A stretch of 64,000 bases of DNA from Nitrospira sp. Its GTDB lineage: Bacteria; Nitrospirota; Nitrospiria; Nitrospirales; Nitrospiraceae. Both the position numbers and the translations under genes were made by a program. The stretch covers positions 2,563,501 through 2,627,500 of the forward strand of contig BQWY01000001.1 of the NCBI GenBank assembly GCA_036984305.1, read 5' to 3'. A model generated the notes under the pieces. That model had not been told where the DNA came from. It made no database searches and was given only the letters and a program-made list of their open reading frames with translations. Positions 15,279 to 40,618 of this stretch are shown here, one piece after another (position 1 is the first letter of the stretch; every line of letters begins with the position of its first letter).

Positions 15279-15537
15279 ATCGAATGCTCCCTCAACACTC
15301 ACTGTGAGTGTGCGCGCCTTGATAACGTCAGGATACGCTGTAGTCTACCGGGAACGCGTCGCATCAGGCTCCTGCCGATCCAATCCAAGATACCGTAGAT
15401 GTTCGCGACACTAGCCACCTACGCTGGATCTAGCATAGCATTCTCACATTCACCCGACCAGGACTATCGCCGCTCTCAACCAGCGGATCCACTCGACTGA
15501 ACCCCAGCATCCTTTCCCACAAACCCCGGTTGAGCGA
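15279..15537. other. Intergenic region, 259 bases
   Basis: This gap separates the SGNH gene (stop at 15538) from the epimerase gene. It is one of the few gaps over 200 bases inside the EPS run and could hold an internal promoter reading leftward. I see no coding frame with a ribosome site, no clear hairpin followed by a T run and no convincing -35/-10 pair. Confidence 0.5.
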
Positions 15538-16989
15538 TCAATTCTGACGACTCGAGCGTTGCTTCAGGGAGTCTTGTATGGACCCTCTCAGACACTCCAC
15601 CACGACACGGTTCCCGGACGGCGCATAGTGTTGGCCATGCCCTACCGGCATGAACATGTCAGGCGTGTAGCCATCGGCCATACAGTCTCTGAGATCCACG
15701 TGCGGGATGTTCCCATCTCGAAGAATTGCTTGCCCGATTGGCACCCACGGTAGACGCTCCGGGACTTCATCAACGGAGGGCAAGTAGACAATCAACGAAT
15801 TTGCCCCCGTTGTGGCGACCGCCTTCTGGAACGCACGAAACAATTCTGTATTGACCTCCCGCAGGGCCTGCGCTGAGATTTCTGGACGTTCCGGCTCATG
15901 TAGAGGATAGAGTGAGAGGAGAAGCCTGAACAGATATGAGCTGTAAAAGGGTTTCCAGTCGGCACGACCCCATTCACTGTCCCGGTATTCCCCGTCATAT
16001 TCGATAAAAGGCAACGTCCGTATGGACGGAGCATTAAAGAGGGCTTGCGGCCCGATAAGAGGCGTGTTGAGCTGTTCCAGACGACCGCCTCGCACGACAA
16101 ACCGCGGCTTGGCAAATGGGGTTTCACCACCAGAGAACAGCAAAAAACTATAGATGGACAGCGACCGGACTACGTCATGGTTCACGAATGCCAACACCAC
16201 GAGATCCGGCTTCCATGGCCGAATATCTCTTAGGTAACGCAGGTACATCTGGTCCACCCCGTAACCACCGACGGCGAAGTTCAGCACCTGGCAGTCCGGT
16301 CCCAGTTCCTGCCCGAGGAGATGCACCCACGCGTTCTCTGCCGCCACTTCCTCTCCGAACGTGAACGAGTCGCCGACGAAGGCAATTCGGCACCCAGGAG
16401 ATTCCTTCTCGAGCACTTCGCCTACTGTGGTGCTGCGGAGCCCCTCGGCGCTGCTGCGATAGAGGCCGCTCGAGTCTTGCCGACTCGGGCCAATCGTCCA
16501 TCCCAGATCGCTGTCGTAAATCCAAAACGGGGCTTGTGCTTCGGACCGCTTCAAGATGGCCCGGAAATTGGCTGCTGTGATATCCCATTGGCGCGGGTAC
16601 AAGAGACGACCGGCAATACGGTCCTCGGTATTAGAGGATACCGCTAGGAGCCTGAGTGCAAACTCTCCGACTCCGACGATCCCCATCACGACTGCTGCGT
16701 TGAGAATAATGGCAAAGATCCATTGTCTCGAGCCATTCCGCTGGCTTACTCGGCACTGGTGCACCACGAATGCGATGGCCACAAGCAGAACCACAACGCC
16801 AGCGATACACAGTAGACCCGGACGGCTGGCCAGAAACGTTGTCCAGTCTGATTTCCCCTCCGCCCGGTAGGCCATGAGGAGAATTCCCACGACCAAGGCC
16901 TCCGCTCCGAACAGCACAGGAACGAGCCACACCGTGTGCGTCCCGGCTTGAGACGAGCCAGGCGTCGTCGTAGCAGCTCGCATCCTCAT
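15538..16989 (-). CDS. Membrane-anchored SGNH/GDSL hydrolase-like protein
   Basis: 483 residues. Three predicted membrane helices (about 20-41, 58-77 and 90-114) precede a large domain. SGNH block I is FVGDSFTFG with GDS at 206-208, block II is NFAVGGYG near 237-244, block III appears as VNHD with Asn270, and block V is HYAPSGN with His454. All four catalytic-type residues therefore look present, although block III is not the usual GxND. Relatives act as periplasmic O-acetyl transferases or esterases on exported glycans (AlgX/AlgJ-type roles), which fits the locus. It is clearly related to the next gene upstream, with the same layout and shared segments such as a GPQ/SPRA-IFN motif near 315. 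Confidence 0.75.
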   Translation of the reverse strand: MRMRAATTTPGSSQAGTHTVWLVPVLFGAEALVVGILLMAYRAEGKSDWTTFLASRPGLLCIAGVVVLLVAIAFVVHQCRVSQRNGSRQWIFAIILNAAVVMGIVGVGEFALRLLAVSSNTEDRIAGRLLYPRQWDITAANFRAILKRSEAQAPFWIYDSDLGWTIGPSRQDSSGLYRSSAEGLRSTTVGEVLEKESPGCRIAFVGDSFTFGEEVAAENAWVHLLGQELGPDCQVLNFAVGGYGVDQMYLRYLRDIRPWKPDLVVLAFVNHDVVRSLSIYSFLLFSGGETPFAKPRFVVRGGRLEQLNTPLIGPQALFNAPSIRTLPFIEYDGEYRDSEWGRADWKPFYSSYLFRLLLSLYPLHEPERPEISAQALREVNTELFRAFQKAVATTGANSLIVYLPSVDEVPERLPWVPIGQAILRDGNIPHVDLRDCMADGYTPDMFMPVGHGQHYAPSGNRVVVECLRGSIQDSLKQRSSRQN

Positions 16990-17101
16990 TCGTGCGAGGA
17001 CCGTCCATTTACAATCAGCAGGCGCAGCGACCCAGCCTCACCACGTGCATTGCGAAGGCTCAATGGCGCTGGTTCACATCTCATGGTCTGTTTCACTTGT
17101 T

Positions 17102-18610
17102 TCACACCATGAACGAGCTGAATGGATGTCTACGTTCTCCCATTGTGACCATGTCCCCGAGTGACTTTCCAAATCGGCGCTCAATCTGGGGCACCAAACA
17201 TTCCGCCAAGGCGGCTTCGCCCAGATCGGAGTAATGAGTGCCACCTGTTCGAAATCGTTGGTCCGAAGAAAGCGCATCCAAACACGTCGTACCATCGACA
17301 AAATCAAGGTTGAGGCGGCGAAGAAACTCCGGGCTGTATGGCACCCTTCTATCGGGCCCGTATTCATCTTTCTGGGGCTGATAGAAAATGATGAATGGAA
17401 TCTTCATCTTGTCCATATGCGCAACAAATGCTCTCATGATCGCTTCGTTGATCTCCCGTATTGCCGGCTCGGACACCCCGATAAGAGGATCATCGTATGA
17501 GGGAAACTCAGTCGCTGCCATTCTGAAGAGGTAGGAGCTATAGAGAGGCCCCCATCCTGGATGTTCCCATTGCGACGAGCGATAGCCCCGGTCATATCGA
17601 ATGAATGGCAGCTCGTCGATGGCTTCATGATTGAAAATCGCTCGTGGCGACGGCAGCGGCACATTGACCAGTTCCAGTCGTCCTTCTTTGAGGACAAACC
17701 GTGGGGCGGCCCATGGGCAGTCCCAATCTCTCATGGTCAGAAAACAATACACACCCAGTCCCCGCTCGGGCGCGCCATCGGTGAAACTGAGCACGACCAC
17801 GCTTGGCTTCAGCGCCGGCACGTCCCGTTGCGCAGCCAACAGCATTTGCGCCAAGCTGTATCCTGGCACAGCAATATTGAGGACTTGGCAAGCTGGCCCC
17901 ATCCGCTCCTGGAGATAGAAGCCCATTGTTTGCTCAAACCACTCCTCCCATCCAAATGTATAGGAGTCGCCGAGGAGCACAACCCGGCACGAAGTGGTTG
18001 TCTGATTGTACGAATAGCCCTCACTCGGGGTACGCGCGCCCTCTGGACCGCTCAGCCACCTTCCCCCACTCCCCGATCGGTTCGGCCCTATCTTCCACCC
18101 TAACAGCGAATCCTCGACAAAATAGTTCGGTGTTGTGTCGAATCTGTCGAGCATCGTTGAGTAGGTCGCGACGACGCGATCCCACCCCCGTGGAAGCAGT
18201 AATCGGCTTCCGATTTCCTGTTCCCATGGTCGTTGCACCGTCGCCATCCGCAGGATCAATTCCAAAGCCATGACCGCCGTGCCTATGAGCACGAACGTCA
18301 CCAGTACCGAAGCAGGTTCTCCGTTCCGCCGATGCGCCGCGCGACGGCACTCGAGGGCTAAAAACGCGCTTCCGACGAGTGTGCCACCCATACCCAGTAG
18401 GCAGGCAATCCCTGATGCGCTGACGAGCGCCTGACGCCATGTCGGTTTGGCCGACGCACGGGCTCCCATGAGGATTGCCACCGCTACGCTGCCGGCGATG
18501 ACAGCGACGAATACGACAATCCACCAATTGATCTTTCCTCGACGCACGCTCGTCCGTTCTGTCATCTGCGCAACATCGTGTGGGATTGGCTTGCGCTTGC
18601 CAGTTCTCAC
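17102..18610 (-). CDS. Membrane-anchored SGNH-like protein, probable degenerate active site
   Basis: 502 residues, a paralogue of the neighbouring 15538 gene. Helices are predicted near 28-50, 62-86 and 101-121. Block I is LLGDSYTFG with GDS at 214-216, block II NIAVPGYS near 245, and block V THYSDLG near the C terminus. At block III, where Asn is expected, the sequence is SFTDGAPE (277-282), so the oxyanion-hole Asn seems to be lost. It may have a different chemistry or act as a partner of its paralogue. The start is a GTG at 18610 without a good ribosome site; an ATG at 18565 is possible. A role in decorating or binding the exported polymer is inferred from context. Confidence 0.7.
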   Translation of the reverse strand: MRTGKRKPIPHDVAQMTERTSVRRGKINWWIVVFVAVIAGSVAVAILMGARASAKPTWRQALVSASGIACLLGMGGTLVGSAFLALECRRAAHRRNGEPASVLVTFVLIGTAVMALELILRMATVQRPWEQEIGSRLLLPRGWDRVVATYSTMLDRFDTTPNYFVEDSLLGWKIGPNRSGSGGRWLSGPEGARTPSEGYSYNQTTTSCRVVLLGDSYTFGWEEWFEQTMGFYLQERMGPACQVLNIAVPGYSLAQMLLAAQRDVPALKPSVVVLSFTDGAPERGLGVYCFLTMRDWDCPWAAPRFVLKEGRLELVNVPLPSPRAIFNHEAIDELPFIRYDRGYRSSQWEHPGWGPLYSSYLFRMAATEFPSYDDPLIGVSEPAIREINEAIMRAFVAHMDKMKIPFIIFYQPQKDEYGPDRRVPYSPEFLRRLNLDFVDGTTCLDALSSDQRFRTGGTHYSDLGEAALAECLVPQIERRFGKSLGDMVTMGERRHPFSSFMV

Positions 18611-18627
18611 GAGGAGCAGTTCGGCCG

Positions 18628-19890
18628 TCAGCTTAGCAGTTCCGAGTAAAGTGTATGGTATCTTTCGGCTTGCAAGAGCAGGGGATACTCCGCTTCTGCA
18701 ACGCGCCGAGCTTCCGCGCCCATGCGCCGTCCCAAAGGCGGATCGTTTACCAATCTTTCGATGGCGACGCGCAGTTCGCCGACATCCCCTGGGGTCACGA
18801 GCAATCCCGTTCGATCTGGGCGAACCATGTCGCGCACCCCTCCCACGTCAAACCCGATGACCGGTGTCCCACACGCCATCGCTTCCATGACGGTATTGGG
18901 CAGGTTATCCTGCATCGAAGGGATGACAAATACATCGGCCGCGCTGTACACCATCGACAAGAATCGATCGCTGCCGACATAATTGAGATGAGACCCGTGA
19001 AGCCCGGCCGCCAGTCGAGGAGCATTGTTGCCGACGGACAAGAACCACAGACGCTTGAGAGACTGCGCGGAGGCCGCCAGAGCCTCTGTCAGCAAGGCGA
19101 ACCCTTTTCGCTGATTGTCGACCATTTCGGCCAGAAATAGAATAACCTGTGCGTCCTCGGGGATGCCCAACACATGACGCGCCGACGCACGGTCGCGTGG
19201 AGCAAAATCGTCCAGGTCAAGGCCGTAGGGGATGGTCTCCACACGGAAGCGTGCAAAAATAGGGCTCTGCTTCACCACCTGTCCGAGCCACCGGCTGGGC
19301 GTGACGATACACAGCCTTCGTGCATCGAGACGCTCGAAGATGGCCCGCTTGCGATCCCAGATCTCGCCGGCTAGATCCTGAGGGTCTCGGGAACCCAGTT
19401 GGGGGCACGCTCCGCAACGCTGGGCGAATTTCCCGCACTCCATGTCGTAATGGCAGCCACCCGTCACCGGATTCATATCGTGAAACGTCCACACCAGACA
19501 TGCCCGCGTGGCAGCCGTGGGAAAGAACAGCTCATAGTCTACGTAGGCCGCAATCCAATGCAAATTGATGATGTCGGACGGGGGTACCTGTTGAATCAAC
19601 GCCGCTCCGTACGGGGTGCGGTCTTGGCTAAATAGCTCGAAGCCAGTTGGCTTCGTGGCCGCATAGGGAGCCATGCTTCGCACGATCGTCTTGCGTCTCC
19701 ACCACCTGCGTCCCCGACTGGGGAGATCCATTGGCAGTACGAACTCCGTCACGCGCGGATCCTGGCTCGATCGATACTTCACCATCATCGAGGTGTCCAG
19801 GCCCAGACGGTCCAAGCCTCGATGCAGTCGGTAAGCAGCCAAGGCTGCCCCGCCCTTGACATCGTATGTACTGATGTGTGCGATTCTCAT
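18628..19890 (-). CDS. Glycosyltransferase family 4 (GT-B)
   Basis: 420 residues. The opening MRIAHISTYDVKGGAALAAY and the TFHDMNPVTGGCHYD motif near 125 followed by a cysteine cluster (CGKFAQRCGACPQLG) mark the WcaC/GumH-like GT4 subgroup that carries this Cys-rich loop. The donor domain has VILFLAEMVDNQRKGFALL near 250 and an EX7E-like DNLPNTVME near 340, with Asp in place of the first Glu, then ACGTPVIGFDVGG. The start overlaps the stop of the upstream GT2 gene as TGATG, indicating translational coupling. It should add a sugar to the EPS intermediate. Confidence 0.88.
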   Translation of the reverse strand: MRIAHISTYDVKGGAALAAYRLHRGLDRLGLDTSMMVKYRSSQDPRVTEFVLPMDLPSRGRRWWRRKTIVRSMAPYAATKPTGFELFSQDRTPYGAALIQQVPPSDIINLHWIAAYVDYELFFPTAATRACLVWTFHDMNPVTGGCHYDMECGKFAQRCGACPQLGSRDPQDLAGEIWDRKRAIFERLDARRLCIVTPSRWLGQVVKQSPIFARFRVETIPYGLDLDDFAPRDRASARHVLGIPEDAQVILFLAEMVDNQRKGFALLTEALAASAQSLKRLWFLSVGNNAPRLAAGLHGSHLNYVGSDRFLSMVYSAADVFVIPSMQDNLPNTVMEAMACGTPVIGFDVGGVRDMVRPDRTGLLVTPGDVGELRVAIERLVNDPPLGRRMGAEARRVAEAEYPLLLQAERYHTLYSELLS

Positions 19891-20915
19891 CAGGATTCAA
19901 ACGGCTTGGAATCGTCTCCGGTGCCATGTGTACAGCTCGCCTTTGGAGTCACGGGCCAGATTTTCTTTGCGAGGCGAACCGCACGCTCGTGCAGACCCCA
20001 CCGTAAGGTCGATCCGACTCCCTTGTAGTACTCAGGTATCCATGGCATGGCAAAACCGCCCTGCACCCACCGCAAGAACGGCGCTTGCGCCTGATACATG
20101 CCTTGCCATCGCTCCAAATAGGTTTGCCAGCCCAATCGGGAAAGATGAGGTTTGATCGCCGCCCATTGCTCCGGCTCCTTCGCAGCATACCGCCGGATGG
20201 CCGGATCCTCGTCAAGAAATCTCAGGTACAGGCGCGTATCCTCCGCCAGGCTTGCGCACTTCAACGACCAGCCGAAACTCACAGGGCTGTACCGCCATCG
20301 AAAGCTGCATCGTTGACTGATCGCCACCGATCCTCTCAGGCACAGCTTGATGAGGATCGCATCGTCGGTATGGGTTCCCCCGGGAATATTGGGGTGGCCG
20401 CCATCCTCTTTGACATAGGTGGTTCGACCCAGCACCGTCGCGTAACTTTCAAACCCATATTCTGTCCATGTCCGAATGAAGTCGGGTCCTGTCATAAACT
20501 CCGGGATCTTGGCCGAGGACGAACGCAAGAACTGTCCCGATGTGTCGACCACGTCCACACGAGCCAGCGCCACCGCCACATCAGGCCTCGCTTCCATGAT
20601 GCGTACAAGGTCGGAGACGTAATTCGGACTGAGCATGTCGTCATAATCGAGGAAGGCGAAGTATTCACCCGTGGCGGCCTCGATGAGCTGGTTGTAGTGC
20701 TGTGGTAAGGGTACAGTCGTCGGATTTTGACGGAACCGATACGGACGGGGGTACCATTGCTCCGCTAGCTCTCTGACTTTCGTCCCATTTTCACCATTGT
20801 CCGACAGAATCAATTCGATATCAGGATAGTCCTGCGCGGCGATCGACTTGAGGGCATCCACAACGTAGTCCAGCCGCTTATAGACTGGCACCGCTATTGT
20901 GACCAGCTTGCTCAC
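19890..20915 (-). CDS. Glycosyltransferase family 2 (GT-A)
   Basis: 341 residues. The N-terminal GT-A fold starts LVTIAVPVYKRLDYVVDAL and has the nucleotide-binding ILSDNG at about 35-41 and the metal-binding DxD as FLDYDDMLSP near 94. An ED-type acidic motif follows. It is an inverting-type sugar transferase, the only GT2 in the window. The start is a GTG at 20915 with GAGG seven bases upstream; the stop overlaps the ATG of the downstream GT4 by one base. The C-terminal 90 residues are basic and aromatic, perhaps for membrane contact. Donor unknown. Confidence 0.88.
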   Translation of the reverse strand: MSKLVTIAVPVYKRLDYVVDALKSIAAQDYPDIELILSDNGENGTKVRELAEQWYPRPYRFRQNPTTVPLPQHYNQLIEAATGEYFAFLDYDDMLSPNYVSDLVRIMEARPDVAVALARVDVVDTSGQFLRSSSAKIPEFMTGPDFIRTWTEYGFESYATVLGRTTYVKEDGGHPNIPGGTHTDDAILIKLCLRGSVAISQRCSFRWRYSPVSFGWSLKCASLAEDTRLYLRFLDEDPAIRRYAAKEPEQWAAIKPHLSRLGWQTYLERWQGMYQAQAPFLRWVQGGFAMPWIPEYYKGVGSTLRWGLHERAVRLAKKIWPVTPKASCTHGTGDDSKPFES

Positions 20916-20977
20916 GTGACAGCCTCACAACTTGGTCCGGGCAAGAGTTGCCGCCGATTGGAACGATTCGTGGTGCC

Positions 20978-21910
20978 TTACTGTCTCCCCCGTGCCCTGT
21001 TTGCTTTCGGTAATGCCGTCAATTCCACTGCCGGATGCGGATTCAACCCGCGTACGGCTTCAAGATAGCGATTTTGAATCGCGCTGAGGACCGGAGATTT
21101 CTCGGAAAGGGGAAACCCGTCTATGTGTGTCGCCAACGTAAGTTCATGGAGCGTGCCACACACTCCGATTTCGTCCGCGACCAGGAGTTCAGTCCGATCG
21201 ATTGGCCGGCGAACGAACGCGATGCCCATGGACTGCGCCATGGCTTCCACAATGTCCAAGGTGATACTCTCCAGCGCGCCCTCGGTCGCCGGCGGAGTAA
21301 TGACCGACCCTTCGCGCACCATCAAGAGACACGAGGCCGTAGCCTCAGCCACTCGACCGGACTGATTCAAGAGAATCATATCCTCATGCCCTAAGCGCTT
21401 CCCTTCGATCCGTGCCAAACGGGAAACCTGATAGTTGCTGCTGGTCTTGATGCGGGCGGGCAAGGCCACGTCGCTGCTCCGTCGCCACGTGCTCACCCCC
21501 ATCGGAATCGCCGCCGGAGCCTTCCTATCCTGATGATAGGCGGTCACGACAAGGTCCGCGACAGTATTTTCACCCCAATGTCCGTCCGTCACAAACAACG
21601 TCGTCCGTGCCCACATGTCCCGATCGGGGCTCACCAGCGCTGCAATAAGCTGATCGACTGCATCGGTGTACTGCTGGAATGTATACTCGCACGGAATGTG
21701 CAGCAGTCGAGCCGAGCGCTTCAGACGCTCGAAATGCCGGCGCATCATCAACATTTTGAATTGTCCGTCCGGTTGCCAGTACCCCTTCAGACCCTCAAAG
21801 ACGTTCAATCCTCTCGTGACGGCTTCACATCCGATGTGCAACGAGGCCTCGTCCCATGCCACAAGTGAGCCTTTCATGTAGGCCAATGCTGGTCGTTGTA
21901 ACTGCGCCAC
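20978..21910 (-). CDS. Class IV PLP aminotransferase (branched-chain aminotransferase-like)
   Basis: About 310 residues. The fold-type IV pattern is clear: ALAYMKGSLVAWDEASL at the start, GLNVFEGLKGY near 35, the PLP-lysine Lys155 in PARIKTSSNYQ, and a GRVAEATASCLL loop near 190 that contacts the cofactor phosphate. Relatives are branched-chain amino acid aminotransferases, D-amino acid aminotransferases and aminodeoxychorismate lyases. In an EPS locus it may supply an amino-acid or amino-sugar substituent. The frame extends to 22015, overlapping the next gene by 68 bases; a GTG at 21910 with GGAGG six bases upstream resolves the overlap, so I use it. It lies 37 bases from the nucleotidyltransferase gene. 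Confidence 0.82.
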   Translation of the reverse strand: MAQLQRPALAYMKGSLVAWDEASLHIGCEAVTRGLNVFEGLKGYWQPDGQFKMLMMRRHFERLKRSARLLHIPCEYTFQQYTDAVDQLIAALVSPDRDMWARTTLFVTDGHWGENTVADLVVTAYHQDRKAPAAIPMGVSTWRRSSDVALPARIKTSSNYQVSRLARIEGKRLGHEDMILLNQSGRVAEATASCLLMVREGSVITPPATEGALESITLDIVEAMAQSMGIAFVRRPIDRTELLVADEIGVCGTLHELTLATHIDGFPLSEKSPVLSAIQNRYLEAVRGLNPHPAVELTALPKANRARGRQ

Positions 21911-21947
21911 GATGTCCTCCTCTGGTAAATGACAATACCCTATGGAA

Positions 21948-22754
21948 TCAACGGACGAATCTTGACGCCTGCGCCCAAGCCATGGGCGTGCCCACATCCA
22001 AATATCGACCGCCACGAAAACGGACAGCCTCTACTTGTAATCGTTGTCGAATCGCTGCTTGTATGACGGCGCCCACCGGCACATCGCCCTGCGGGTCAAT
22101 CCGTCGGTTTCCCAGCACGTTGCCCCCACGTCCTTTTCGAATGTCCCCAAGAAATCGGTGAAGAAACGAGGTGAACGTCGGCATCCAGACGGCACAAATC
22201 CAGGCCCATCGCAGACTCGTTCGCTTCGGTTTGAGTTGCAGATTCCGTACACGTCCTGTGCGATCCACGTCAATCATGTCCATGGCTTTGGTATCGTGTG
22301 CGGGATACAGCCCCAGCACCACATCGGCGTCTCCTGCGGCCAGCCTCGCCAGCATATCCGTAAAGACGTTCTGCGGTTGTAAGAGAATGTCGGGGAAGCC
22401 GAACGCCACGACATGGTCGTCGACAAAGGCATGGGCTCGATCGAGCGTGTCCGGTGGTCCCTTGGTGTCGTCGACCACCACATACGCGAGATGCATCCCA
22501 AGCCGGCTCCCATCACCCCAGTATCCGGCGATGTCCCATTTACCTTGACGGAGCACGACGAAGACTTTTCGAATCTCTGCGACCCTGAACTGATCGAGCA
22601 GATATTGGCTGACGACCTTCGGGCGCGCTTCCTCATACCCGTCCAGGGTACCCACACCAACGGGCAAGATCTCCTTGCTGCAGGGTAAGGGAGCGAGCCG
22701 TCGCGAGCGCCCGGCGGCGGGAATCAGTCCTACGACCTGATGGCCCCGTATCAT
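21948..22754 (-). CDS. Sugar nucleotidyltransferase (RmlA-like)
   Basis: 268 residues. The opening VVGLIPAAGRSRRLAPLPCSKEILPVG matches the GxGxR and PKxLLPV motifs of hexose-1-phosphate nucleotidyltransferases, though in a variant form (AAGRSRRL). FGFPDILL near 118 corresponds to the metal-binding region, and DVGTPMAW at the C-terminal end is the typical sugar-binding tail. It should activate a sugar phosphate, or possibly another phosphorylated compound, with NTP. It is shorter than RmlA (about 290). It sits between the PhyH-type oxygenase and the class IV aminotransferase, so the three may work in one route. Confidence 0.8.
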   Translation of the reverse strand: MIRGHQVVGLIPAAGRSRRLAPLPCSKEILPVGVGTLDGYEEARPKVVSQYLLDQFRVAEIRKVFVVLRQGKWDIAGYWGDGSRLGMHLAYVVVDDTKGPPDTLDRAHAFVDDHVVAFGFPDILLQPQNVFTDMLARLAAGDADVVLGLYPAHDTKAMDMIDVDRTGRVRNLQLKPKRTSLRWAWICAVWMPTFTSFLHRFLGDIRKGRGGNVLGNRRIDPQGDVPVGAVIQAAIRQRLQVEAVRFRGGRYLDVGTPMAWAQASRFVR

Positions 22755-22784: not shown

Positions 22785-23723
22785 CTAACGGCTGCGATGT
22801 TCGCCCTCATGTTGGTACATCAGCTCCCCTCCATCCCCTGTATCGTCGTCGTACATCGCCACCAGGTCTGCGGGGAGATGGACCAAGTCGGTGGCTCTCA
22901 GATAGTCGCGCATCGTCGTACCCGTGCACTCCTCGTCCACGCGCGGAGCGCCCTTCTTGTTCGCAACATCGTCCAGGTGGACGACCCGAAAATCAATACT
23001 GAATCGAGTCCTTCCCGACGTGTTGGGCACGCTCGAATGCATCTGCGCGCCCGAAAAGAAGATGATGCCGCCCGCTGGCACGATCAACCGGATTTGTGGG
23101 TCCAACTGCACCGGCTCCGTCGGTTTTGGAAGGGGACGCGGGTCCTCCTTCAGAAACTGGCCCACGTGGTCTCCGCGATGCTGCAGGTTCCATTTGTAGT
23201 AGTTGTACCCCTTGGAGCTATTCTTCACCGGATGCCCCCAATAGGCGGGATGAAAGGCCATGGCATTGTCCGACGTAATATCGAAAATGGGGATCCACCA
23301 GTTGATCTGGCAGGCGGGCGCTGAATACCAAGTGTCCCGGTGCGGATGCCACGCATAGGCAATCCCGGTTGTCAGATAGTTGTCGCTCGTGGAGCTGCGC
23401 ATTTTGGGAACGTCGAAGTAGGTCCTCTCCAAGTCGCAGCCCATCTCCACAAAAAGATCACGCATTAATGTCTTGGACTGTGGGTGATGGATGAAGCCCG
23501 GCTTGAGCTTGACGAGCACCTTGGCATAGTCCTCGACCGACATGTGATGTTGAGCCGTTTCTGGATCAAGCGGCTCGAATGCGTCTCGGATAAGACCACG
23601 GGCAAAATCGACAAAAGCCAGCGAACTCTTCCGCGGGGAATAAACGAAGAGCTGCCCCTCAAACAGCGCCGCTCGGCGAGCATCGTCGGACATGTGGGAA
23701 TCATAGTATACGGTATGGTTCAT
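22785..23723 (-). CDS. Phytanoyl-CoA dioxygenase (PhyH)-like Fe(II)/2-oxoglutarate oxygenase
   Basis: 312 residues. The iron-binding facial triad is visible: HxD as His128/Asp130 in AWHPHRDTWYSAP, and the distal His229 in FFSGAQMHSSVPN, followed by an arginine (238 or 240) that would bind 2-oxoglutarate. This class hydroxylates lipids, amino acids, small molecules and sugars. The substrate here is unknown. ATG at 23723 has GGAGGTACAGC upstream, a strong ribosome site. It heads a tight group with the nucleotidyltransferase (30-base gap) and the aminotransferase, and follows the GMC oxidase by 107 bases. Confidence 0.8.
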   Translation of the reverse strand: MNHTVYYDSHMSDDARRAALFEGQLFVYSPRKSSLAFVDFARGLIRDAFEPLDPETAQHHMSVEDYAKVLVKLKPGFIHHPQSKTLMRDLFVEMGCDLERTYFDVPKMRSSTSDNYLTTGIAYAWHPHRDTWYSAPACQINWWIPIFDITSDNAMAFHPAYWGHPVKNSSKGYNYYKWNLQHRGDHVGQFLKEDPRPLPKPTEPVQLDPQIRLIVPAGGIIFFSGAQMHSSVPNTSGRTRFSIDFRVVHLDDVANKKGAPRVDEECTGTTMRDYLRATDLVHLPADLVAMYDDDTGDGGELMYQHEGEHRSR

Positions 23724-23830: not shown

Positions 23831-25450
23831 CTATAGCTCGCCCCGTTTAAACGCGCGCACCATGCCCTCCGCTGTCCGGGTCGCTAATGCCGCAATTGTG
23901 AGAGAAGGATTGACCCCGGCTGCCGTGACGAAGACACTGCCATCAGCAACGTACAGATTTCGTACGTCATGCGCCCGCCCCCACGCATTCACGACGGACC
24001 GGTTCGGATCCTTACCCATTCGGCATCCACCCATATAATGAGCCGAGGTGCCTGGAGTATGATTTTCAGGATCAAGCACCTCCACTGACCCTGCAGCCTT
24101 AAAGAGTTCCTTCAACATCGGTGTGAATGCGGAAATCATCTTCCGATCGTTTTCCCGGTGCTCACTGGTAATATGTGGAGCGGGAATCCCCCGATGGTCC
24201 CGCACATCCGGACTGAGCGTCACGGTGTTTCGCTCATCCGGCAACTGCTCCCCACAGGCCGACAACTCGAAACTATGCCCCACGAGATCTCTGATCCTCT
24301 TCTTATACGCGCCCCCCCATCCGACATGGTTCATCGCCACCGCCTGCGGCCAGGACCAATCTTGATTGATCATGACTTGCCATCCGCGTGCAAAGCCCTG
24401 CTTGGCGTTGGTCGCATAAAAGTCTTGCATATACCCACCTCCGGGAGGCCCCATCCACGGATCGACTTGATCACTAAACCGGCCCGTCACAGCGGCGGAG
24501 AGATGTTCCATGAAGTACTTGCCGACGGTCCCGCTCGAATTGGCCAGGCCGTCGGGAAACGATGAAGATGCGCTCAACAGCAACAGTCGCGGTGTCTCGA
24601 CGGCATTGCCTGCCAACACCACCGCCCGCGCCATGAGTTCACGCTCTGTTCCCTCGGCATCGAAATACACGACACCCGTCGCCTTCCCGTCCGTGCCCAT
24701 CCTGATCCTCCGCACCATGCAGAGTGAGCGGATTTCGACCCGGCCGGTTGCTTCCGCCTTCGGCACGTACGTCACATCCATGCTGGATTTGGCTCGCACA
24801 CGACACCCGTATCCGCACACGCCCGCACGGATGCACGCCGGACGCCCGCCCCAGGGTCGAGTGGGAATCGCCAACGGAATTTGCACCCAATGCCACCCCA
24901 GTCTAGCGGCTCCTTGCTGCATGAGGCGGCTTGCACAACTCAGCTCGTGCGGTGGATTTGGGAAGGGCGCGCTCCGTGGTGGATCGAATGGATTAGCCTC
25001 TCGCCCAGTCGGTCCGCTTACTCCCAACTCGTGTTCAACTCTTCCATAATACGGCTCGAGGTCGGCATAGGTGAGCGGCCAATCCTCTCCGACACCGTCT
25101 TCGCTCCTGACGCGGAAATCCGATTCGTGGAAACGCGGGACCTGAGCTTGATAAGCCAGCGTCGAGCCTCCCACGCCTTTCGCCCGTGTAAAGACAAACC
25201 CCTCCGCTCCGCCCACAGTATAGAGGTCCTGCCTGGGATCGAGCGGTTGAAAAAACGTCTTGGTCGCCCGCTTCACGAAATCCGGTTGATCCGTCGCGTA
25301 GTCCTGAGCCGGCTCGTAACGGGGGCCTGCCTCCAACACCACGACTTTTATCCCGGCTTCACCCAATTCCTTCGCCAAGACAGCGCCACCTGCCCCACAG
25401 CCGACAACGATCACGTCAACGGACTCTTTCTTGGGTTCCAGATTCGCCAT
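23831..25450 (-). CDS. GMC-family oxidoreductase (membrane sugar/alcohol dehydrogenase-type flavoprotein)
   Basis: About 539 residues. The FAD-binding motif is VDVIVVGCGAGGAVLAK near 11-27, with an acidic EAGPRYEP after it. A cysteine-containing segment near 210 (RPACIRAGVCGYGC) is typical of gluconate/2-ketogluconate dehydrogenase-like GMC enzymes. The catalytic His-Asn pair of the family appears as TSAHYMGGCRMG and AAGVNPSLTIAAL in the C-terminal quarter. The longest frame starts at 25543; I use ATG at 25450, which overlaps the upstream stop as TAATG. Its partner gene encodes a gluconate 2-dehydrogenase subunit 3-like protein, so the pair probably oxidises a sugar or polyol on the periplasmic side. 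Confidence 0.85.
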   Translation of the reverse strand: MANLEPKKESVDVIVVGCGAGGAVLAKELGEAGIKVVVLEAGPRYEPAQDYATDQPDFVKRATKTFFQPLDPRQDLYTVGGAEGFVFTRAKGVGGSTLAYQAQVPRFHESDFRVRSEDGVGEDWPLTYADLEPYYGRVEHELGVSGPTGREANPFDPPRSAPFPNPPHELSCASRLMQQGAARLGWHWVQIPLAIPTRPWGGRPACIRAGVCGYGCRVRAKSSMDVTYVPKAEATGRVEIRSLCMVRRIRMGTDGKATGVVYFDAEGTERELMARAVVLAGNAVETPRLLLLSASSSFPDGLANSSGTVGKYFMEHLSAAVTGRFSDQVDPWMGPPGGGYMQDFYATNAKQGFARGWQVMINQDWSWPQAVAMNHVGWGGAYKKRIRDLVGHSFELSACGEQLPDERNTVTLSPDVRDHRGIPAPHITSEHRENDRKMISAFTPMLKELFKAAGSVEVLDPENHTPGTSAHYMGGCRMGKDPNRSVVNAWGRAHDVRNLYVADGSVFVTAAGVNPSLTIAALATRTAEGMVRAFKRGEL

Positions 25451-26160
25451 TAGAGGCTCCCGTCCGAGAGAGAACCACAGGCGGTACGACGGCCTGCATA
25501 CCCAAACGGAAAGGGCGGCCCTGAGTACCCCAGTGACGGCCAAGCTTCCGGCATTCCATAATAGATTTCCGCCGTATCGCGGATAACTTGGTCGAACAAC
25601 ACCAGTACGGGGTCTGAAATTCCGACCACACGTCGATAGTATAGGCTGGCAAGTTTACGCCTGACCTTTCCAATTACCGTCTCCGGTGCATCGTCTGCCC
25701 ACAACATATGTCTGGATTCCTCCACAAGGCCGAATAGTCCCGTTTGCATCGACCGCTCCATTGCAGCGAACCGCTTCCCGTGACGACTCTTGGCTAACTC
25801 ATCGATTGCGCGGAGGCCGTCCTGATAGTGCTGCCTGGCACTACCTCCAGAGATGAGATTTTCCTTGAGCCGCTCCGCTACCTTGATCTCGATTGCCCCG
25901 GGACCCGCCTCGTCGGCGGGGATTACAATGTCCGTGAGGGCCTTCAAGGTGCTGAATTCCGAATCCGATAGACAGTCGTCAATCGTGCACGACGCGGCAA
26001 CTGTCTGGTTCAGCTCCTCTCGCCCCGCTCCCCACGACTGAGCAGCGATAAATCCCATCGCCTCGAGACATGTGCGCCCTCCGACTACCACAATGCCAAG
26101 AAGACCCAGTCGCCTGAGAAATCCTCTCCGCCCAACCCCACACCACTTGCCGGCTCGCAT
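25450..26160 (-). CDS. Gluconate 2-dehydrogenase subunit 3-like protein with Tat signal
   Basis: About 236 residues. A twin-arginine signal lies at the N terminus (GRRGFLRRLGLLGIVVVGG), predicting folded export to the periplasm together with the flavoprotein partner. The mature part has LSDSEFSTLKALTDIVIPAD near 85, the hallmark start of the gluconate_2-dh3 domain. This subunit stabilises and targets the GMC flavoprotein. The longest frame uses a GTG at 26199; ATG at 26160 follows a purine-rich stretch and gives a normal-length signal, so it is preferred with modest certainty. No cytochrome subunit gene is adjacent, so the electron acceptor is unclear. Confidence 0.82.
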   Translation of the reverse strand: MRAGKWCGVGRRGFLRRLGLLGIVVVGGRTCLEAMGFIAAQSWGAGREELNQTVAASCTIDDCLSDSEFSTLKALTDIVIPADEAGPGAIEIKVAERLKENLISGGSARQHYQDGLRAIDELAKSRHGKRFAAMERSMQTGLFGLVEESRHMLWADDAPETVIGKVRRKLASLYYRRVVGISDPVLVLFDQVIRDTAEIYYGMPEAWPSLGYSGPPFPFGYAGRRTACGSLSDGSL

Positions 26161-26213: not shown

Positions 26214-27536
26214 CTACACTGAGCTTGGTACCTCACGAAGCAGATCACACGCCGTCAACGCCTCGGCAGCCATCCTCACGTCATGAAACGGCAGGGACGC
26301 GCGTTCCGCGATATCCAACAGGGAATGCTGCCCGTCGGACAGATTCAAAACCCAGAGGATCGTGAGTTCCCGTGACTGCTTTTCCTGTTGCCCCGCCACG
26401 GCCCTATACAAACCTCGACGCCCCAACTGCGGTTCGCACTTCGGGTTCTGATTACGGTAGACTCGATTGTGCTCAAGCACTTCTATGGCGGCAAGACACA
26501 GTTCGTAAGAACGCCAGAGCGATTCCGGCTGAATGAAGTCCAAGTTGTCCGCCGACGAATGATATTCTGGATATTCGCCGTGAGGCGTTCGCATGAAGCA
26601 TCCGACCGGAAGGTCGAATCCGGGCGAACAAAACTGGCGTTCATCATATCCATATGGGAAGAAATCGATAACCCTATGAGCCTCTCCCGAATGCGTCAAT
26701 ACGTGCTCCATGGCACGATCGATATCGGCCCTCCCGCGACGGCTTCGCTTGTAGGTGACGCCTCCCCTATCCCCGACACCGGTCAGCACAAGACCATGTT
26801 TGATGCGAGCCACCTCGGCCTCGTTTCGAGCCAACCAGGTGATCGATCCAATTGTGCCAGGGATGAAGAGAAAGCGGTATGAATATCGGGTCCGACGCGT
26901 TGCCAAAGAGCGGGCCAACGCGGTGGCCACGGCGATACCGGACAGATTGTCGTTTGCCAAGGAAGGGTGACACACATGGCAGGACATCAGCACCTCTTCG
27001 GTCGACTGGCCAGCGAGCAGACATTCGCCATAGGTGAGCGATCCCTTTTCCAAGCGGGAGTCGATGCATACATCGTATTCCGCGTCTCGCATGGCGAGGA
27101 GGTGCCGATGGCTCAGACAAAATCCCCAGTTCTCTTTGTAATAGGAGGTCCTGTACGGCACCCAATCCGGATGATCCGGCAAGGTAAACAAATGAGGGCG
27201 AAGCTCGTCCAACGTCATCCTCCCCCGCACCGGCGTGCTGTAGCTCATCACGTGCAGGTTCGAGGAGCGGAAATCCACGATGCGCTCACCGTCTAAATTT
27301 TTGATATAGGCGTCGCTAATGTTCCACTCGAGTGGAACCTTCCAATCGAACACCGGCTCCCCACTCCGCACTTCGTGTAACACGACGGGACATTCAGCCT
27401 GAAGTACCTTTAGAGTGGCACGAACCCCATCTCCGGTAATACTGCGGCAAAAAGGGAAAAGTGAGCGCGCCAACTCGTACATAGACATGCCCGACAGCGC
27501 CGCACCGAAGCCTGGCTGCATACTATCCACGCTCAT
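26214..27536 (-). CDS. Aminopeptidase-like protein with C-terminal winged-helix (DUF4910-type)
   Basis: 440 residues. The pattern ELARSLFPFCRSITGDGVR near the N terminus, SCHVCHPSLANDNLSGI near 190 and ERQFCSPGFDLPVGC near 300 are those of the COG4310/DUF4910 aminopeptidase-like group, in which His, Asp and Glu-type residues resemble the zinc site of M28 peptidases. The C-terminal 80 residues read like a small winged helix. Members recur in O-antigen and EPS loci, but their reaction is not established; a deacylase or amidase acting on a glycan precursor is one possibility. ATG at 27536 overlaps the upstream stop by four bases. Confidence 0.75.
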   Translation of the reverse strand: MSVDSMQPGFGAALSGMSMYELARSLFPFCRSITGDGVRATLKVLQAECPVVLHEVRSGEPVFDWKVPLEWNISDAYIKNLDGERIVDFRSSNLHVMSYSTPVRGRMTLDELRPHLFTLPDHPDWVPYRTSYYKENWGFCLSHRHLLAMRDAEYDVCIDSRLEKGSLTYGECLLAGQSTEEVLMSCHVCHPSLANDNLSGIAVATALARSLATRRTRYSYRFLFIPGTIGSITWLARNEAEVARIKHGLVLTGVGDRGGVTYKRSRRGRADIDRAMEHVLTHSGEAHRVIDFFPYGYDERQFCSPGFDLPVGCFMRTPHGEYPEYHSSADNLDFIQPESLWRSYELCLAAIEVLEHNRVYRNQNPKCEPQLGRRGLYRAVAGQQEKQSRELTILWVLNLSDGQHSLLDIAERASLPFHDVRMAAEALTACDLLREVPSSV

Positions 27537-29103: not shown

Positions 29104-29637
29104 CTAGGCAGGTTGGAAGTCGGGATATGCCTGATCGCGATCAGAGATAATGCGCGTCTCAATCGGCCAGCGAATTCCAAAAAGAGGATCGTCCCAGCGC
29201 ACACCTCGTGCACTTTCTGGATTATAGAATGCGGACATCTGATAAAACATTTCGGTATGGTCCTCCAATACTTGAAATCCGTGCGCCAACCCTTCGGGAA
29301 TGTATAGCATGGTATGATTGCGAGCGGACAACTCGATGCCGAAATGCTGTAGATACGAAGGAGAGCCCGCTCTGAGGTCGATTATGACGTCGTAGAGTCG
29401 CCCGGCCGAACACCGTACGAGCTTGGCCTCTGCATGCGGAAAGACTTGGTAATGCATCCCCCGGAGAGTGCCTGCATGCACATTCCCTGACAGATTGCAC
29501 TGTACCCACCGTACAGCCAGACCATGTGCAGCGAACTCTTGCTCACAATAGGTGCGCCCAAAAAATCCTCGCTCATCAGAGCGAATCTCCACATCGATCA
29601 CGAACGCACCCCGCAGCGGGGTCTCGCGAAAGATCAC
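29104..29637 (-). CDS. rfbC: dTDP-4-dehydrorhamnose 3,5-epimerase-like (RfbC/RmlC cupin)
   Basis: 177 residues, full length. The cupin motifs are present: FVIDVEIRSDERGFFGRTYCEQEF at the N terminus (seen as two shorter blocks), LRGMHYQ near 60 with the catalytic His, a VRCSAGRLYDVIIDLR strand near 75 and IPEGLAHGFQVL near 118. It epimerises a 4-keto-6-deoxy nucleotide sugar. No rmlA, rmlB or rmlD accompanies it; its neighbours are a C-methyltransferase and an RfbF cytidylyltransferase, so a CDP-linked substrate is plausible. The start is a GTG at 29637 that overlaps the upstream TGA (GTGA). Confidence 0.9.
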   Translation of the reverse strand: MIFRETPLRGAFVIDVEIRSDERGFFGRTYCEQEFAAHGLAVRWVQCNLSGNVHAGTLRGMHYQVFPHAEAKLVRCSAGRLYDVIIDLRAGSPSYLQHFGIELSARNHTMLYIPEGLAHGFQVLEDHTEMFYQMSAFYNPESARGVRWDDPLFGIRWPIETRIISDRDQAYPDFQPA

Positions 29638-30869
29638 GAGTAGACCGTCACCTCAGGAATCGGGACCGCAAATCTTCCGCCCCATTCGCGAATGAACGCC
29701 ATCTGCTGCATGACCTCATCCCGGATATTCCAGGGAAGAATCAACACGTAGTCAGGACGCGTCTCACGAATGCGTTCCGGAGCAAAGATCGGAACGTGCA
29801 CGCCTGGCAAAAAGTGTCCTTGCTTGTATGGACTCCGATCTACCGTGTAGTCCATCAGATCCGTCCGGACGCCACAATAGTTCAGCAGCGTATTCCCTTT
29901 GGCGGGCGCGCCGTATCCCACCACGTGCTTACCCGTTTCTTTGGCCTCAATCAGAAAGGAAAGGACTTTGCGTTTGGTTGATTCCACTCGCGGCCCAAAG
30001 GACAGATAGTGCGACAATGCGCCAAACCCGGCTGACTCCTCTTTGGTTTTGAGCAGAGTCGCGCGTGCACCCTGCTGCTTCTCCCTATCGTCCTCATGAC
30101 AGGCATAGATCCGCAAGGAGCCTCCGTGCGTCGGTAATTCCTCAACGTCAAACAGGCGCAGCCCGTGCCGCGCAAAGACTTTTTCCACGGCCAAGAACGA
30201 GAAATACGAGAAGTGTTCGTGATAAATCGTATCAAACTGATTCAACTCCATGAGCTGCAACAGATGCGGGAATTCCATCGTGACGACACCGCCTGCGCCC
30301 AATAAGACTTTGAGCCCTCGGATGAAATCGTTCAAATCCGGGACGTGAGCCAGCACGTTGTTCCCCACTATCAAGTCGGGCTGCCACCCCTCCGCCCTGA
30401 GATCCACGGCTGTTTTCTCGCCAAAAAACGCTACACGGGTGTTGATACCCTTTTGCCTGGCCACCTCCGCTACATTGGCGGCCGGCTCGATTCCCAATAC
30501 AGGCACCCCACGCTCCACGAAGTTTCTGAGCAAATACCCGTCATTACTGGCAATTTCGATTACTTTCGATCGCTGATTGAGACGTAGGCGGTCGACAATC
30601 ATCTCCACGTAGGCGCGAGCATGCGCGAGCCAGGAGTCCGAGAAGGAGGAAAAATACGCATAGTCGGAAAAAATGTCGTGAGGCGTCGAAAACTGCTCCA
30701 GTTGCACCAACAGGCACTCATGACACACGAAGACATGGAGCGGGTAGAACGGCTCCATCCGGTTTCGCTGTTCGGGCTTTATATAGGAATTGGCCAGCGG
30801 CGACATGCCAAGATCGACAAATGTATGCTCCAACCCGGCGCTACAGGAACGACACTGTGATCTGGTCAT
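29634..30869 (-). CDS. Sugar C-methyltransferase (TylC3-like, Methyltransf_13/14 architecture)
   Basis: About 411 residues in three parts: an N-terminal zinc-binding domain (CRSC at 6-9, then LGMSPLANSYI), a central SAM-binding Rossmann domain (VIEIASNDGYLLRNF near 93 and the IVGNNVLAHVPDLNDF segment near 155) and a C-terminal domain (VVGYGAPAKGNTLLNYCG near 300). This architecture is that of C-methyltransferases that methylate 4-keto sugars at C3 to make branched sugars. An extended frame to 30911 exists, but ATG at 30869 has GGGAG at 8 bases. It is translationally coupled to rfbC downstream. Confidence 0.88.
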   Translation of the reverse strand: MTRSQCRSCSAGLEHTFVDLGMSPLANSYIKPEQRNRMEPFYPLHVFVCHECLLVQLEQFSTPHDIFSDYAYFSSFSDSWLAHARAYVEMIVDRLRLNQRSKVIEIASNDGYLLRNFVERGVPVLGIEPAANVAEVARQKGINTRVAFFGEKTAVDLRAEGWQPDLIVGNNVLAHVPDLNDFIRGLKVLLGAGGVVTMEFPHLLQLMELNQFDTIYHEHFSYFSFLAVEKVFARHGLRLFDVEELPTHGGSLRIYACHEDDREKQQGARATLLKTKEESAGFGALSHYLSFGPRVESTKRKVLSFLIEAKETGKHVVGYGAPAKGNTLLNYCGVRTDLMDYTVDRSPYKQGHFLPGVHVPIFAPERIRETRPDYVLILPWNIRDEVMQQMAFIREWGGRFAVPIPEVTVYS

Positions 30870-30937
30870 GTCGCATTCTCCCTTCATCGAACGCCCAATG
30901 CGCTCGCCCATCGGGGTGGCGCGCCATTCGCCTCACG

Positions 30938-32008
30938 TTACGCTCGTTGGGGCATCCCTGAAGTGGTCATCCACCTCAGCTGATCGGTCAGATGTCCGCC
31001 TTCGCGTAGGCGCCTCAAGGTGACAAGTCGCATGAACTCGCCGGTTCTAAAGTCCGGGTCTTGAAACTTCATGGCAATCAATCCGTCTCGCAGGTCTGCC
31101 ACCGCAGCATGGAGATCCATCTCGGGCAAGAATCCTTGCGCCAACTTTGTAAACACATCGAAACTGACACGGTACGAACGCTTGTCAGGCTGCCCATCCT
31201 TATTGATCGACACCTGAACACCCTGGACCTGTTTGGCTACTGCTTCAGCCAGATCCCTGACTTGGTAGTTCCACACGTCACTGCCAACGTTGACCGTCAA
31301 ACAGGCACCGCCGTCCCGGTGATCTCGTTGAATCGCCCAGTCGATGGCTCTGGCCATATCTTTGACGTGAATCAGTGGGCGCCAGGGTGTCCCGTCACTG
31401 AGAATGTTGATCTGCTTGGACACCAATGCTCCAGCCACAAAGTCGTTGAGCACAAGGTCCAGCCGGAGCCTATCACTCATCCCGCAGGCAGTCGAAAACC
31501 GAAGACAGGTCACGGTAAACGCATCTGAGGCCAAGCTCGCCAGTTCACGTTCGGTCTGGACCTTTGACCTTGCGTAGGCAGTCAGCGGGTTGAGCGCATC
31601 TTCTTCCTTGCGAGGGCCACCCTCAGCAAATCCATACACGCTGCAACTTGAGGCAAATACGAACTTTCTGACCCCAAGTTGCTTGGCCTTGCGCGCGAGT
31701 TCCAGACTGGCCCGGTAGTTGATGTCCAGCGTGATCTCCTCGAACAGCGCTCCCATGGGATCATTCGAAATCGCACACAGGTGAATGACGGCGTCGACTC
31801 CGCGGAGGATATGGTCCGGGACATGTCGTACGTCGCCGAAGTACTGCACATCAGCCAAACTTTCCGGAAACCGCTGTGAGCCGGTAAGACAGTGGGCGAA
31901 GTATCCCATGTCAAATCCGAGTAGTTCAGCGTCAGGGTGACACGACCGCAGACGGCGTACGACCACAGGACCAACGTATCCCATGTTACCCGTGATAAGT
32001 ATTCTCAT
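30938..32008 (-). CDS. NAD-dependent epimerase/dehydratase (nucleotide-sugar reductase or epimerase)
   Basis: 356 residues of the extended SDR family. ITGNMGYVGPVVVRRL at 5-20 binds the cofactor, ASSCSVYGFAEGG near 118 holds the catalytic Ser, and YARSK near 144 is the YxxxK pair. In a cluster with RfbF, a C-methyltransferase and RfbC, it likely performs the 4-ketoreduction or an epimerisation of the branched nucleotide sugar. The substrate is not read from the sequence. ATG at 32008 has GAGGGGGACGA before it. It does not resemble CDP-glucose 4,6-dehydratase (RfbG) in its opening motif. Confidence 0.82.
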   Translation of the reverse strand: MRILITGNMGYVGPVVVRRLRSCHPDAELLGFDMGYFAHCLTGSQRFPESLADVQYFGDVRHVPDHILRGVDAVIHLCAISNDPMGALFEEITLDINYRASLELARKAKQLGVRKFVFASSCSVYGFAEGGPRKEEDALNPLTAYARSKVQTERELASLASDAFTVTCLRFSTACGMSDRLRLDLVLNDFVAGALVSKQINILSDGTPWRPLIHVKDMARAIDWAIQRDHRDGGACLTVNVGSDVWNYQVRDLAEAVAKQVQGVQVSINKDGQPDKRSYRVSFDVFTKLAQGFLPEMDLHAAVADLRDGLIAMKFQDPDFRTGEFMRLVTLRRLREGGHLTDQLRWMTTSGMPQRA

Positions 32009-32017
32009 TCGTCCCCC

Positions 32018-33214
32018 TCAGTTTAACTCGGCCTTGATCCGTTCACAGACGTGCTGGGAGAAAGGTAGTCCGCAGGTGAAGGCCGGCGAAACCGCATTGA
32101 GCACGTGCATGGACTGCCGATCCCCTTGAAGCACAAAGTCCATCTCGAGCTTGCGCTTGCGAATGTCGACCAGTTGCGCACGAATGCCGGGTTTCCCCCA
32201 TTCCCGGAAATGGTCAAGTCGTACGCCCTTTGCCAGTTGGCTAGCCAGCGTCACCATCCGAACCTTTGAATATTTAGTCATTTCTTCAAACGCCAGTCGC
32301 CGAAAATCGAAATTTGCGCTTGCAAGCAGTCCCAGTCCGCGCGTCGCCACTTCCATCAATTCCCCAAGATTGAAGTTGGTCACTCCCCCATAGTGTTCAC
32401 GCCAGAATCCTGGAATCGCGGTCGGACCGATTTTGGCTTTGCCGTTCGCAGACACCGTGAAATGGACTCCAAGAAATGGATTCTTGAGGTTCGGCACCGG
32501 ATAGATATTGGTTCGAATGGATCCAGGAGGCTCACTTGAATAGAGATATAGCCCCTTGAATGGAAGAATTCGGTACTCCTGCGAAAACCCAAACCCGCGT
32601 GCAATGCGGTCGGCGTACAGCCCAGCGGCATTCACGACATACCCAACATCAATTCGCCCATCAGTGGTTTCGACATGACCCGGCTTCCCGCTGATATACC
32701 GGACACCACATGCAATCTGGACGCCTTCTTCAATGGCATCGATTTTCATGGCCCGCATGACCAGGCCAGGGTCCACGGTCGACGTTGCAGGCGAATACAG
32801 TGCTCGCTCGCACGTCTTGACTCTCGGCTCAATTTCGCGGGCCTCCTTTTCCGAGATGTCGTTGATTGGAATGCCATTGGCCCGTCCTCGCCGGAGCAAC
32901 TCGTCAAGACCGTCAAGATCGTGGTAATCCTTCGCAACCACCAGCTTACCGCATCGATTGAGAGGGATGCGTTTGGCCTCGCAGTATTCCGTTAATGCCC
33001 GATTCCCTTGCCACGTGAAACGCGCCTTCAGGCTGTCCGGTGAATAGTAGAATCCCGCATGTAACACCCCGCTATTGCGGCCGCTCGCGTGCAGGCCACA
33101 ATCCAACTCTTTTTCAATGAGATGAACTTTGGCATCGGGGAAGCACCGCCGTAGACCGCGAGCGATGTTCAACCCGATGACCCCACCGCCAATCACGAGG
33201 AAGTCAGGCTGCAC
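32018..33214 (-). CDS. L-2-hydroxyglutarate oxidase-like FAD oxidoreductase (LhgO family)
   Basis: 398 residues, full family length. The FAD motif is FLVIGGGVIGLNIARGL at the N terminus, followed by SGRNSGVLHAGFYY near 46, a block nearly diagnostic of LhgO, and the C-terminal VNAVSPAFTCGLPF. LhgO oxidises L-2-hydroxyglutarate at the membrane. Members also occur inside O-antigen and EPS loci between sugar genes, and here it is bracketed by RfbF (6-base gap) and a sugar epimerase (9-base gap), so an unrecognised glycan or sugar-acid substrate is possible. The start is a GTG at 33214. Confidence 0.85.
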   Translation of the reverse strand: MQPDFLVIGGGVIGLNIARGLRRCFPDAKVHLIEKELDCGLHASGRNSGVLHAGFYYSPDSLKARFTWQGNRALTEYCEAKRIPLNRCGKLVVAKDYHDLDGLDELLRRGRANGIPINDISEKEAREIEPRVKTCERALYSPATSTVDPGLVMRAMKIDAIEEGVQIACGVRYISGKPGHVETTDGRIDVGYVVNAAGLYADRIARGFGFSQEYRILPFKGLYLYSSEPPGSIRTNIYPVPNLKNPFLGVHFTVSANGKAKIGPTAIPGFWREHYGGVTNFNLGELMEVATRGLGLLASANFDFRRLAFEEMTKYSKVRMVTLASQLAKGVRLDHFREWGKPGIRAQLVDIRKRKLEMDFVLQGDRQSMHVLNAVSPAFTCGLPFSQHVCERIKAELN

Positions 33215-33220
33215 GAATGA

Positions 33221-40610: not shown

Positions 40611-40618
40611 ACGCTCAA

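Follow-up and report, generated by a model that had tools for sequence, protein, structure and literature searches.

A putative periplasmic flavin dehydrogenase pair as an optional element of a Nitrospira glycan-export locus

Why should a bacterium that looks like a nitrite oxidizer keep two genes resembling those of a sugar dehydrogenase inside a polysaccharide-export locus, and what might their products oxidize there? The question is raised by a 64,000-nucleotide stretch of a Nitrospira sp. genome (GenBank assembly GCA_036984305.1, contig BQWY01000001.1, positions 2,563,501 to 2,627,500; the window), which encodes a GMC flavoprotein and a partner of the gluconate 2-dehydrogenase subunit 3 type with a twin-arginine translocation (Tat) signal. 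The reading preferred here, with a probability of about one half, is that the pair forms a periplasmic flavin dehydrogenase that oxidizes the exported glycan or a periplasmic precursor as an optional decoration, the electrons passing to a c-type cytochrome.

The two genes, their motifs and the locus around them are read directly from the sequence (Table 1). Both genes lie on the minus strand, which an earlier sequence-only reading had left unstated; its description of a GMC flavoprotein coupled through TAATG to a subunit 3-like partner with a twin-arginine motif is confirmed by the Pfam scores, the paired arginines and the junction sequence. The small-subunit gene has its stop codon at 25450–25452 and starts at ATG 26160 or, alternatively, at GTG 26199. 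No signal peptide or membrane segment of its own was seen in a prediction on the GMC protein of the window, as is expected of a Tat 'hitchhiker' passenger according to the available part of PMC6719666. Two matches to TatC are present in the host genome. The pair is not a chance arrangement, since the related genome G032 keeps it in a syntenic locus (76% identity to the window for the GMC protein, 38% for the small subunit). Such pairing is itself ordinary: of 105 fetched loci with a GMC gene, 99 also contain a small-subunit match.

In a sequence search, the best solved relatives of the GMC protein are fructose dehydrogenase (FDH; E = 1.8e-72) and then the flavin adenine dinucleotide (FAD) glucose dehydrogenase of Burkholderia cepacia (BcGDH). 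The first nine Foldseek matches of its predicted model (mean predicted local distance difference test score, pLDDT, 87.6) are chains of the same two enzymes (seven and two, respectively), with template-modelling (TM) scores of 0.86–0.89. His471 and Asn514 align with what, from knowledge of the GMC family, is presumably the catalytic pair, and three cysteines are predicted to ligate a 3Fe–4S cluster. The BcGDH ligands are Cys212, Cys218 and Cys222, with Cys213 forming an inter-subunit disulphide (available part of PMC6719666); Ile207 of the window protein aligns with Cys213. Because the ligand spacing and the catalytic His/Asn of the fructose and glucose dehydrogenases are kept, the pair should act as a periplasmic flavin dehydrogenase. 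For the small subunit no convincing solved relative was found by sequence, and its model (mean pLDDT 78) has no match in the PDB at E ≤ 0.001 by fold, so that its kinship rests on PF13618. A GMC subunit, predicted 3Fe–4S cysteines and a PF13618 partner with an RR motif are all features of the FAD-dependent sugar dehydrogenases of the GADH/FDH/BcGDH type. Their tri-haem cytochrome c subunit was looked for among window frames of 100 residues or more and, with one Pantoea cytochrome subunit as query, in the genome and was not found, and the pair is therefore not filed as a full three-subunit complex. It would work like the gamma–alpha part of the known sugar dehydrogenase complexes, its export, cofactors and activity being predicted from sequence.

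The relatives of the pair were sought in overlapping draws of 395, 175 and 230 genomes; the best few candidates per genome were scored and the in-depth search covered the host phylum. A GMC match is present in 21 of 395 genomes of the phylum draw (E ≤ 1e-60), in 6 of 175 of the host family (E ≤ 1e-90) and in 9 of 230 of the class of G428 (E ≤ 1e-100). A careful tree of 48 rows groups the window with G032, G002 and G399 (support 100/99) and unites G361, G396, G428, G523 and G540 in a second group (support 100/99); the small subunits of all nine members carry the RR motif. A quick tree containing seven of nine glycan-linked pairs joins both groups (support 96). A further 80 loci came from a scan of genome contigs with two short patterns; they serve only as background, since the scan brought in no recognized member of the host phylum. 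Among viral contigs the patterns matched 41 times, with no relative of the pair among the matches.

Both closest groups are tied to glycan export. In seven of the eight other members, or eight of nine with the window, the pair is flanked by two or more glycan families (4/4 in the window's group, window included, and 4/5 in the second), and all eight linked members have both Wzm and Wzt. The tie to a glycan locus proposed from the window alone thus recurs in its closest relatives. Among other pair loci such a context is found by the same thresholds in none of 21 in the phylum and in one of 80 elsewhere, namely L077, an Acidobacteriaceae contig with a pair of a different clade beside Wzm/Wzt on the opposite strand. 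The count in the phylum becomes 1/21 if identity thresholds are dropped, as G263 then passes with GT1, carbamoyltransferase and epimerase-type matches. Fisher's test on these related, non-independent rows gives p = 1.5e-6, 1.3e-5 when G263 is counted and 3.9e-5 when the window is also left out. The sequence-only reading had allowed that it would fail should the pair occur mostly outside glycan loci; this is so for the wider family (1/80; 0–1/21) but not for the lineage of the window (8/9).

The link survives reshuffling, since in G002 a GT2 glycosyltransferase gene sits between the small-subunit and GMC genes. In G428 the order is RfbF, oxidase, epimerase, aminotransferase, methyltransferase, RmlC, DUF4910, nucleotidyltransferase, small subunit, GMC, Wzm and Wzt. 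In G399 the pair lies on one contig and DUF4910 on another, and the DUF4910 search gave no match in G361. The constant partner of the pair is the exporter, not DUF4910.

Within these loci the pair is optional and looks inserted. Of 395 genomes, taken to be those of the GMC draw because size and tallies agree, 78 have DUF4910 relatives; 7 of the 78 have a GMC match at E ≤ 1e-60 and 71 none so strong. Twenty further DUF4910 loci from 20 genomes were compared, leaving out four known beside the pair; G399 and the host, with a second locus of its own, are among the sources. Matches to GMC or the small subunit are absent from all 20, and 18 have Wzm. In the ten where PhyH comes next, 32–100 bases separate the DUF4910 and PhyH matches, compared with 2,491 in the window. 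In G264, from the genus of G428, the slot after the nucleotidyltransferase holds instead a 374-residue protein with one membrane segment. As all 20 further loci are without the pair, a role as a step of the core C-methyl sugar pathway is rejected: the pair looks like a decoration gene set and the core sugar is probably made without it. A second glycan-export locus of the host genome itself contains DUF4910 and PhyH but lacks the pair (L243; G000:C1:1916001–1935900).

These observations suggest the following course of events. The small subunit would carry both proteins through the Tat system, and the GMC subunit would take a hydride from a hydroxyl group of the glycan exported by Wzm/Wzt, or of a periplasmic precursor, which would turn that group into a ketone or aldehyde. 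From FAD the electrons would pass to the 3Fe–4S cluster and on to a c-type cytochrome, which in the window's group could be a separate protein and in the second group may take the form of two haems on the tail of the small subunit itself. The modification would be an optional one, outside the core sugar pathway.

As to the electron route, the sequence-only reading noted that no cytochrome gene is adjacent, which holds for window frames of 100 residues or more, the range covered by the scan. Three such frames contain CxxCH; one is the DUF4910 protein, with a single motif, and two are plus-strand frames opposite called minus-strand genes. The further step from this absence to a polymer substrate does not follow: a candidate cytochrome, meaning a same-strand frame with two CxxCH motifs or a short one with a single motif, is present within 3.5 kb of only 12 of 80 GMC relatives elsewhere, some of whose loci are cut by contig ends, so that a missing neighbour is ordinary in the subfamily and says nothing about substrate. 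In the host genome PF13442 matches 35 places though a gluconate-dehydrogenase-type query from Pantoea matches none. A pair from Blastocatellia (L041) is adjoined by a five-CxxCH protein. Two frames of the host genome, both likewise with five CxxCH motifs, are related to it (E = 2.8e-26 and 1.3e-13). Two relatives each are also found in G032, G002 and G399; in G428, G396 and G247 matches are weaker or absent and in G361 there is none. The host proteins are possible acceptors, though far from the pair.

In the second group all five small subunits (L209, L143, L145, L144 and L210) end in two CxxCH motifs, whereas none of 96 outside the group does, those of the window's group included (the first survey counted 3 of 99, all from the second group, before G523 and G540 were added). 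The tails match cytochrome c7/c3-type Pfam models, all below cut-off, and no description of PF13618 small subunits with CxxCH tails was found among the literature matches listed. The pair is adjoined by a second GMC-like gene, a 4Fe–4S protein and a membrane protein in G361, where they precede it, and in G523, where they follow it. Of the two membrane proteins, that of G523 scores above the cut-offs for DmsC (31.6 bits) and NrfD (25.9 bits), and that of G361 matches DmsC weakly (15.8 bits). Together, the predicted haem tails and Fe–S/DmsC–NrfD-like genes hint that electrons enter respiration via the membrane in this lineage. A more general proposal, that flavin dehydrogenases in ABC-export loci oxidize the polymer in the periplasm as a respiration-wired maturation step, in one lineage through a fused di-haem tail (with a 4Fe–4S/DmsC–NrfD-like module in two loci), is tentative and considered somewhat less likely than not.

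Several points weigh against oxidation of the glycan. The choice of the polymer as substrate is an inference. With one Pantoea subunit as query, the host genome gave no gluconate-dehydrogenase-type cytochrome at E 0.001. The context probes were taken from the window's own locus and their thresholds set after a first look, which biases them towards the window lineage, and for several group loci a longer stretch was covered than for the comparison loci. G396 is represented by a 9-kb contig with MopE/GDSL and fn3 genes and no glycan gene seen there. The pair of G263 (L152; G263:C48:26001–45900) lies outside both groups and is probably in a glycan locus too. A single clade of all nine pairs is neither recovered by the careful tree nor rejected by an approximately unbiased test (p = 0.31); the two groups may thus be separate clades, and the independent events may number only two. 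The wider GMC family is mostly found outside glycan loci, with plasmid relatives beside ABC sugar importers or a GH15 gene.

The last point is also an argument for a different substrate. In the periplasm the pair might act on a sugar, polyol or cyclitol that is free or released by turnover and feed the electrons to respiration, the locus marking only where the sugar comes from, and the closest solved enzymes are indeed named for free fructose and glucose. This is nonetheless rather unlikely: eight of nine members are linked to exporter and biosynthesis genes, and no importer or catabolic gene was recognized among the locus proteins scanned. The host, too, looks chemolithoautotrophic. Three identical 429-residue frames (L221, L222 and L223) match a type II dimethyl sulfoxide reductase beta model below cut-off, and the best solved match of such NxrB-like frames is nitrite oxidoreductase subunit B (E = 3.6e-177). 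The host thus looks like a nitrite oxidizer of the Nitrospira kind, for which sugar catabolism by the pair would be less expected, though possible.

GMC enzymes oxidize many alcohols, and class IV aminotransferase, PhyH, L-2-hydroxyglutarate-oxidase-like and AlgX-like genes surround the pair, so its target could instead be something other than sugar, for example an acyl, amino-acid or lipid group that genes of the locus attach to the export product or its carrier. Loci that lack the pair contain aminotransferase, PhyH and oxidase genes too, however, and the nearest solved enzymes act on sugars, which makes such a target distinctly improbable. It is less probable still that a generic sugar dehydrogenase has simply moved into a variable slot of the operon with no functional tie. 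The optional presence of the pair and a second pair of another clade elsewhere in the host genome would fit such a passenger, but the link persists in two supported groups that span different families and gene orders, and the ligand and catalytic residues are kept. Oxidation of the exported glycan or its precursor remains the preferred reading.

If it is correct, a respiration-coupled flavin dehydrogenase in capsule or exopolysaccharide loci would extend the tailoring of polysaccharides outside the cytoplasm, of which acylation and epimerization are known forms, to an oxidation that yields keto or aldehyde groups. Keto and aldehyde groups can cross-link or bind metals. A known case of such tailoring outside the cytoplasm, according to the portion of its description available, is the copper oxidase GlxA. 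Nothing on point about GMC dehydrogenases acting with exopolysaccharide or capsule, or in Nitrospira, or about glucoside 3-dehydrogenase or oxidized polysaccharides, was found among the literature matches listed, whose coverage lies mainly beyond the subscription journals. Loci that differ by the pair make a direct genetic test possible, and the small subunits with two haem motifs hint at the destination of the electrons. The survey also carries a warning, namely that in this GMC family the substrate cannot be read from the absence of an adjacent cytochrome.

The surrounding polysaccharide locus is a minus-strand stretch from about 6 to 47 kb of the window. It has Wzm, Wzt, glycosyltransferases and an outer-membrane export protein, as expected of an ABC-dependent (Wzm/Wzt) locus. 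In its sugar cassette the cytidylyltransferase and RmlC score above the TIGR02623 and TIGR01221 cut-offs, respectively, and its export stretch also encodes a 551-residue protein with no Pfam family. DUF4910 has been proposed, from gene neighbourhoods, to act in the synthesis of modified polysaccharides (available part of PMC4000134). The earlier statement that all neighbours are glycan genes mostly stands; the DUF4910, PhyH and class IV aminotransferase genes are linked to glycans by context only. The cassette at 26214–34006 (cytidylyltransferase, epimerase, C-methyltransferase, RmlC and DUF4910) recurs with Wzm/Wzt in the host phylum, sometimes with the L-2-hydroxyglutarate-oxidase-like gene.

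Table 1. Positions of the gene pair, its motifs and the surrounding genes (window coordinates unless a locus is named).
Feature	Position	Strand	Basis or remark
GMC flavoprotein, catalytic subunit	23831..25450	-	539 aa from ATG; Pfam GMC_oxred_N 67 bits, GMC_oxred_C 100 bits
Gluconate 2-dehydrogenase subunit 3-type small subunit, Tat-type signal	25450..26160	-	PF13618 (Gluconate_2-dh3) 56 bits, cut-off 23.4
TAATG overlap joining both genes	25448..25452	-	Sequence
Twin-arginine motif region GRRGFLRR (small subunit)	26110..26130	-	Arginines at 26125-26130 and 26110-26115
C206, C212, C216 (C-x5-C-x3-C), predicted 3Fe-4S ligands	24803..24835	-	Spacing as BcGDH Cys212/218/222
His471, presumed first of catalytic pair (HYMGGCRMG)	24038..24040	-	Alignment
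Asn514, presumed second of catalytic pair (NPSLT)	23909..23911	-	Alignment; followed by Pro at residue 515
DUF4910/DUF2172 protein, left edge of insertion site	26214..27536	-	Pfam; gap analysis
PhyH-like protein, right edge of insertion site	22785..23723	-	22.7 bits, cut-off 22
AlgX-like SGNH protein, one predicted membrane segment	27533..29092	-	Below Pfam cut-off
Sugar cassette: RmlC, C-methyltransferase, epimerase, L-2-hydroxyglutarate-oxidase-like, glucose-1-phosphate cytidylyltransferase	29104..34006	-	Profile matches
ABC exporter: two Wzt-like ATPases and Wzm-like permease	35047..38688	-	Profile matches
NusG-like, deacetylase, initiating sugar transferase, Wzz/AAA, two Poly_export/SLBB (Wza-like)	39052..47058	-	
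Carbamoyltransferase, glycosyltransferases, epimerase, GDSL/SGNH, class IV aminotransferase, nucleotidyltransferase	7153..22754	-	
Second GMC-like, 4Fe-4S and DmsC/NrfD-like genes	L143 13859-17174; L209 9948-13227		

The second GMC/PF13618 pair of the host genome (L011; G000:C1:1384501–1404500, at 8852–16981) and its relative L042 belong to the same two families and have the Tat-type motif and Fe–S cysteines, but they form a supported separate clade and match no glycan probe. In L011 the pair occurs with Transglut_core3, ATP-grasp, PqqD, HPr-kinase-like and NTP_transf_5 (nucleotidyltransferase) genes. L042, from Bacterium HR37, has a similar gene set and a GMC protein 60% identical; the L011 set looks like a peptide-modification cluster.

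Among characterized systems, the B. cepacia FAD glucose dehydrogenase gamma–alpha(–beta) complex (6a2u, 8grj) likewise combines a Tat small subunit with a GMC protein having the C-x5-C-x3-C spacing, and the window model superimposes on it with a TM score of about 0.86. The window pair differs in having no adjacent tri-haem beta subunit, in the replacement of Cys213 by Ile, in its identity of about 30% and in its place in a glycan-export operon. The Gluconobacter fructose dehydrogenase (7w2j) is the best solved match of the window GMC protein (TM score 0.88–0.89). That enzyme has a cytochrome subunit and a free-sugar substrate, neither of which is shown for the window pair. GlxA of Streptomyces differs more, being, in the accessible part of its description, a radical copper oxidase whose partner, CslA, is cellulose-synthase-like and not an ABC exporter; it nevertheless provides the precedent of a sugar-oxidase-type enzyme that works with a glycan synthase.

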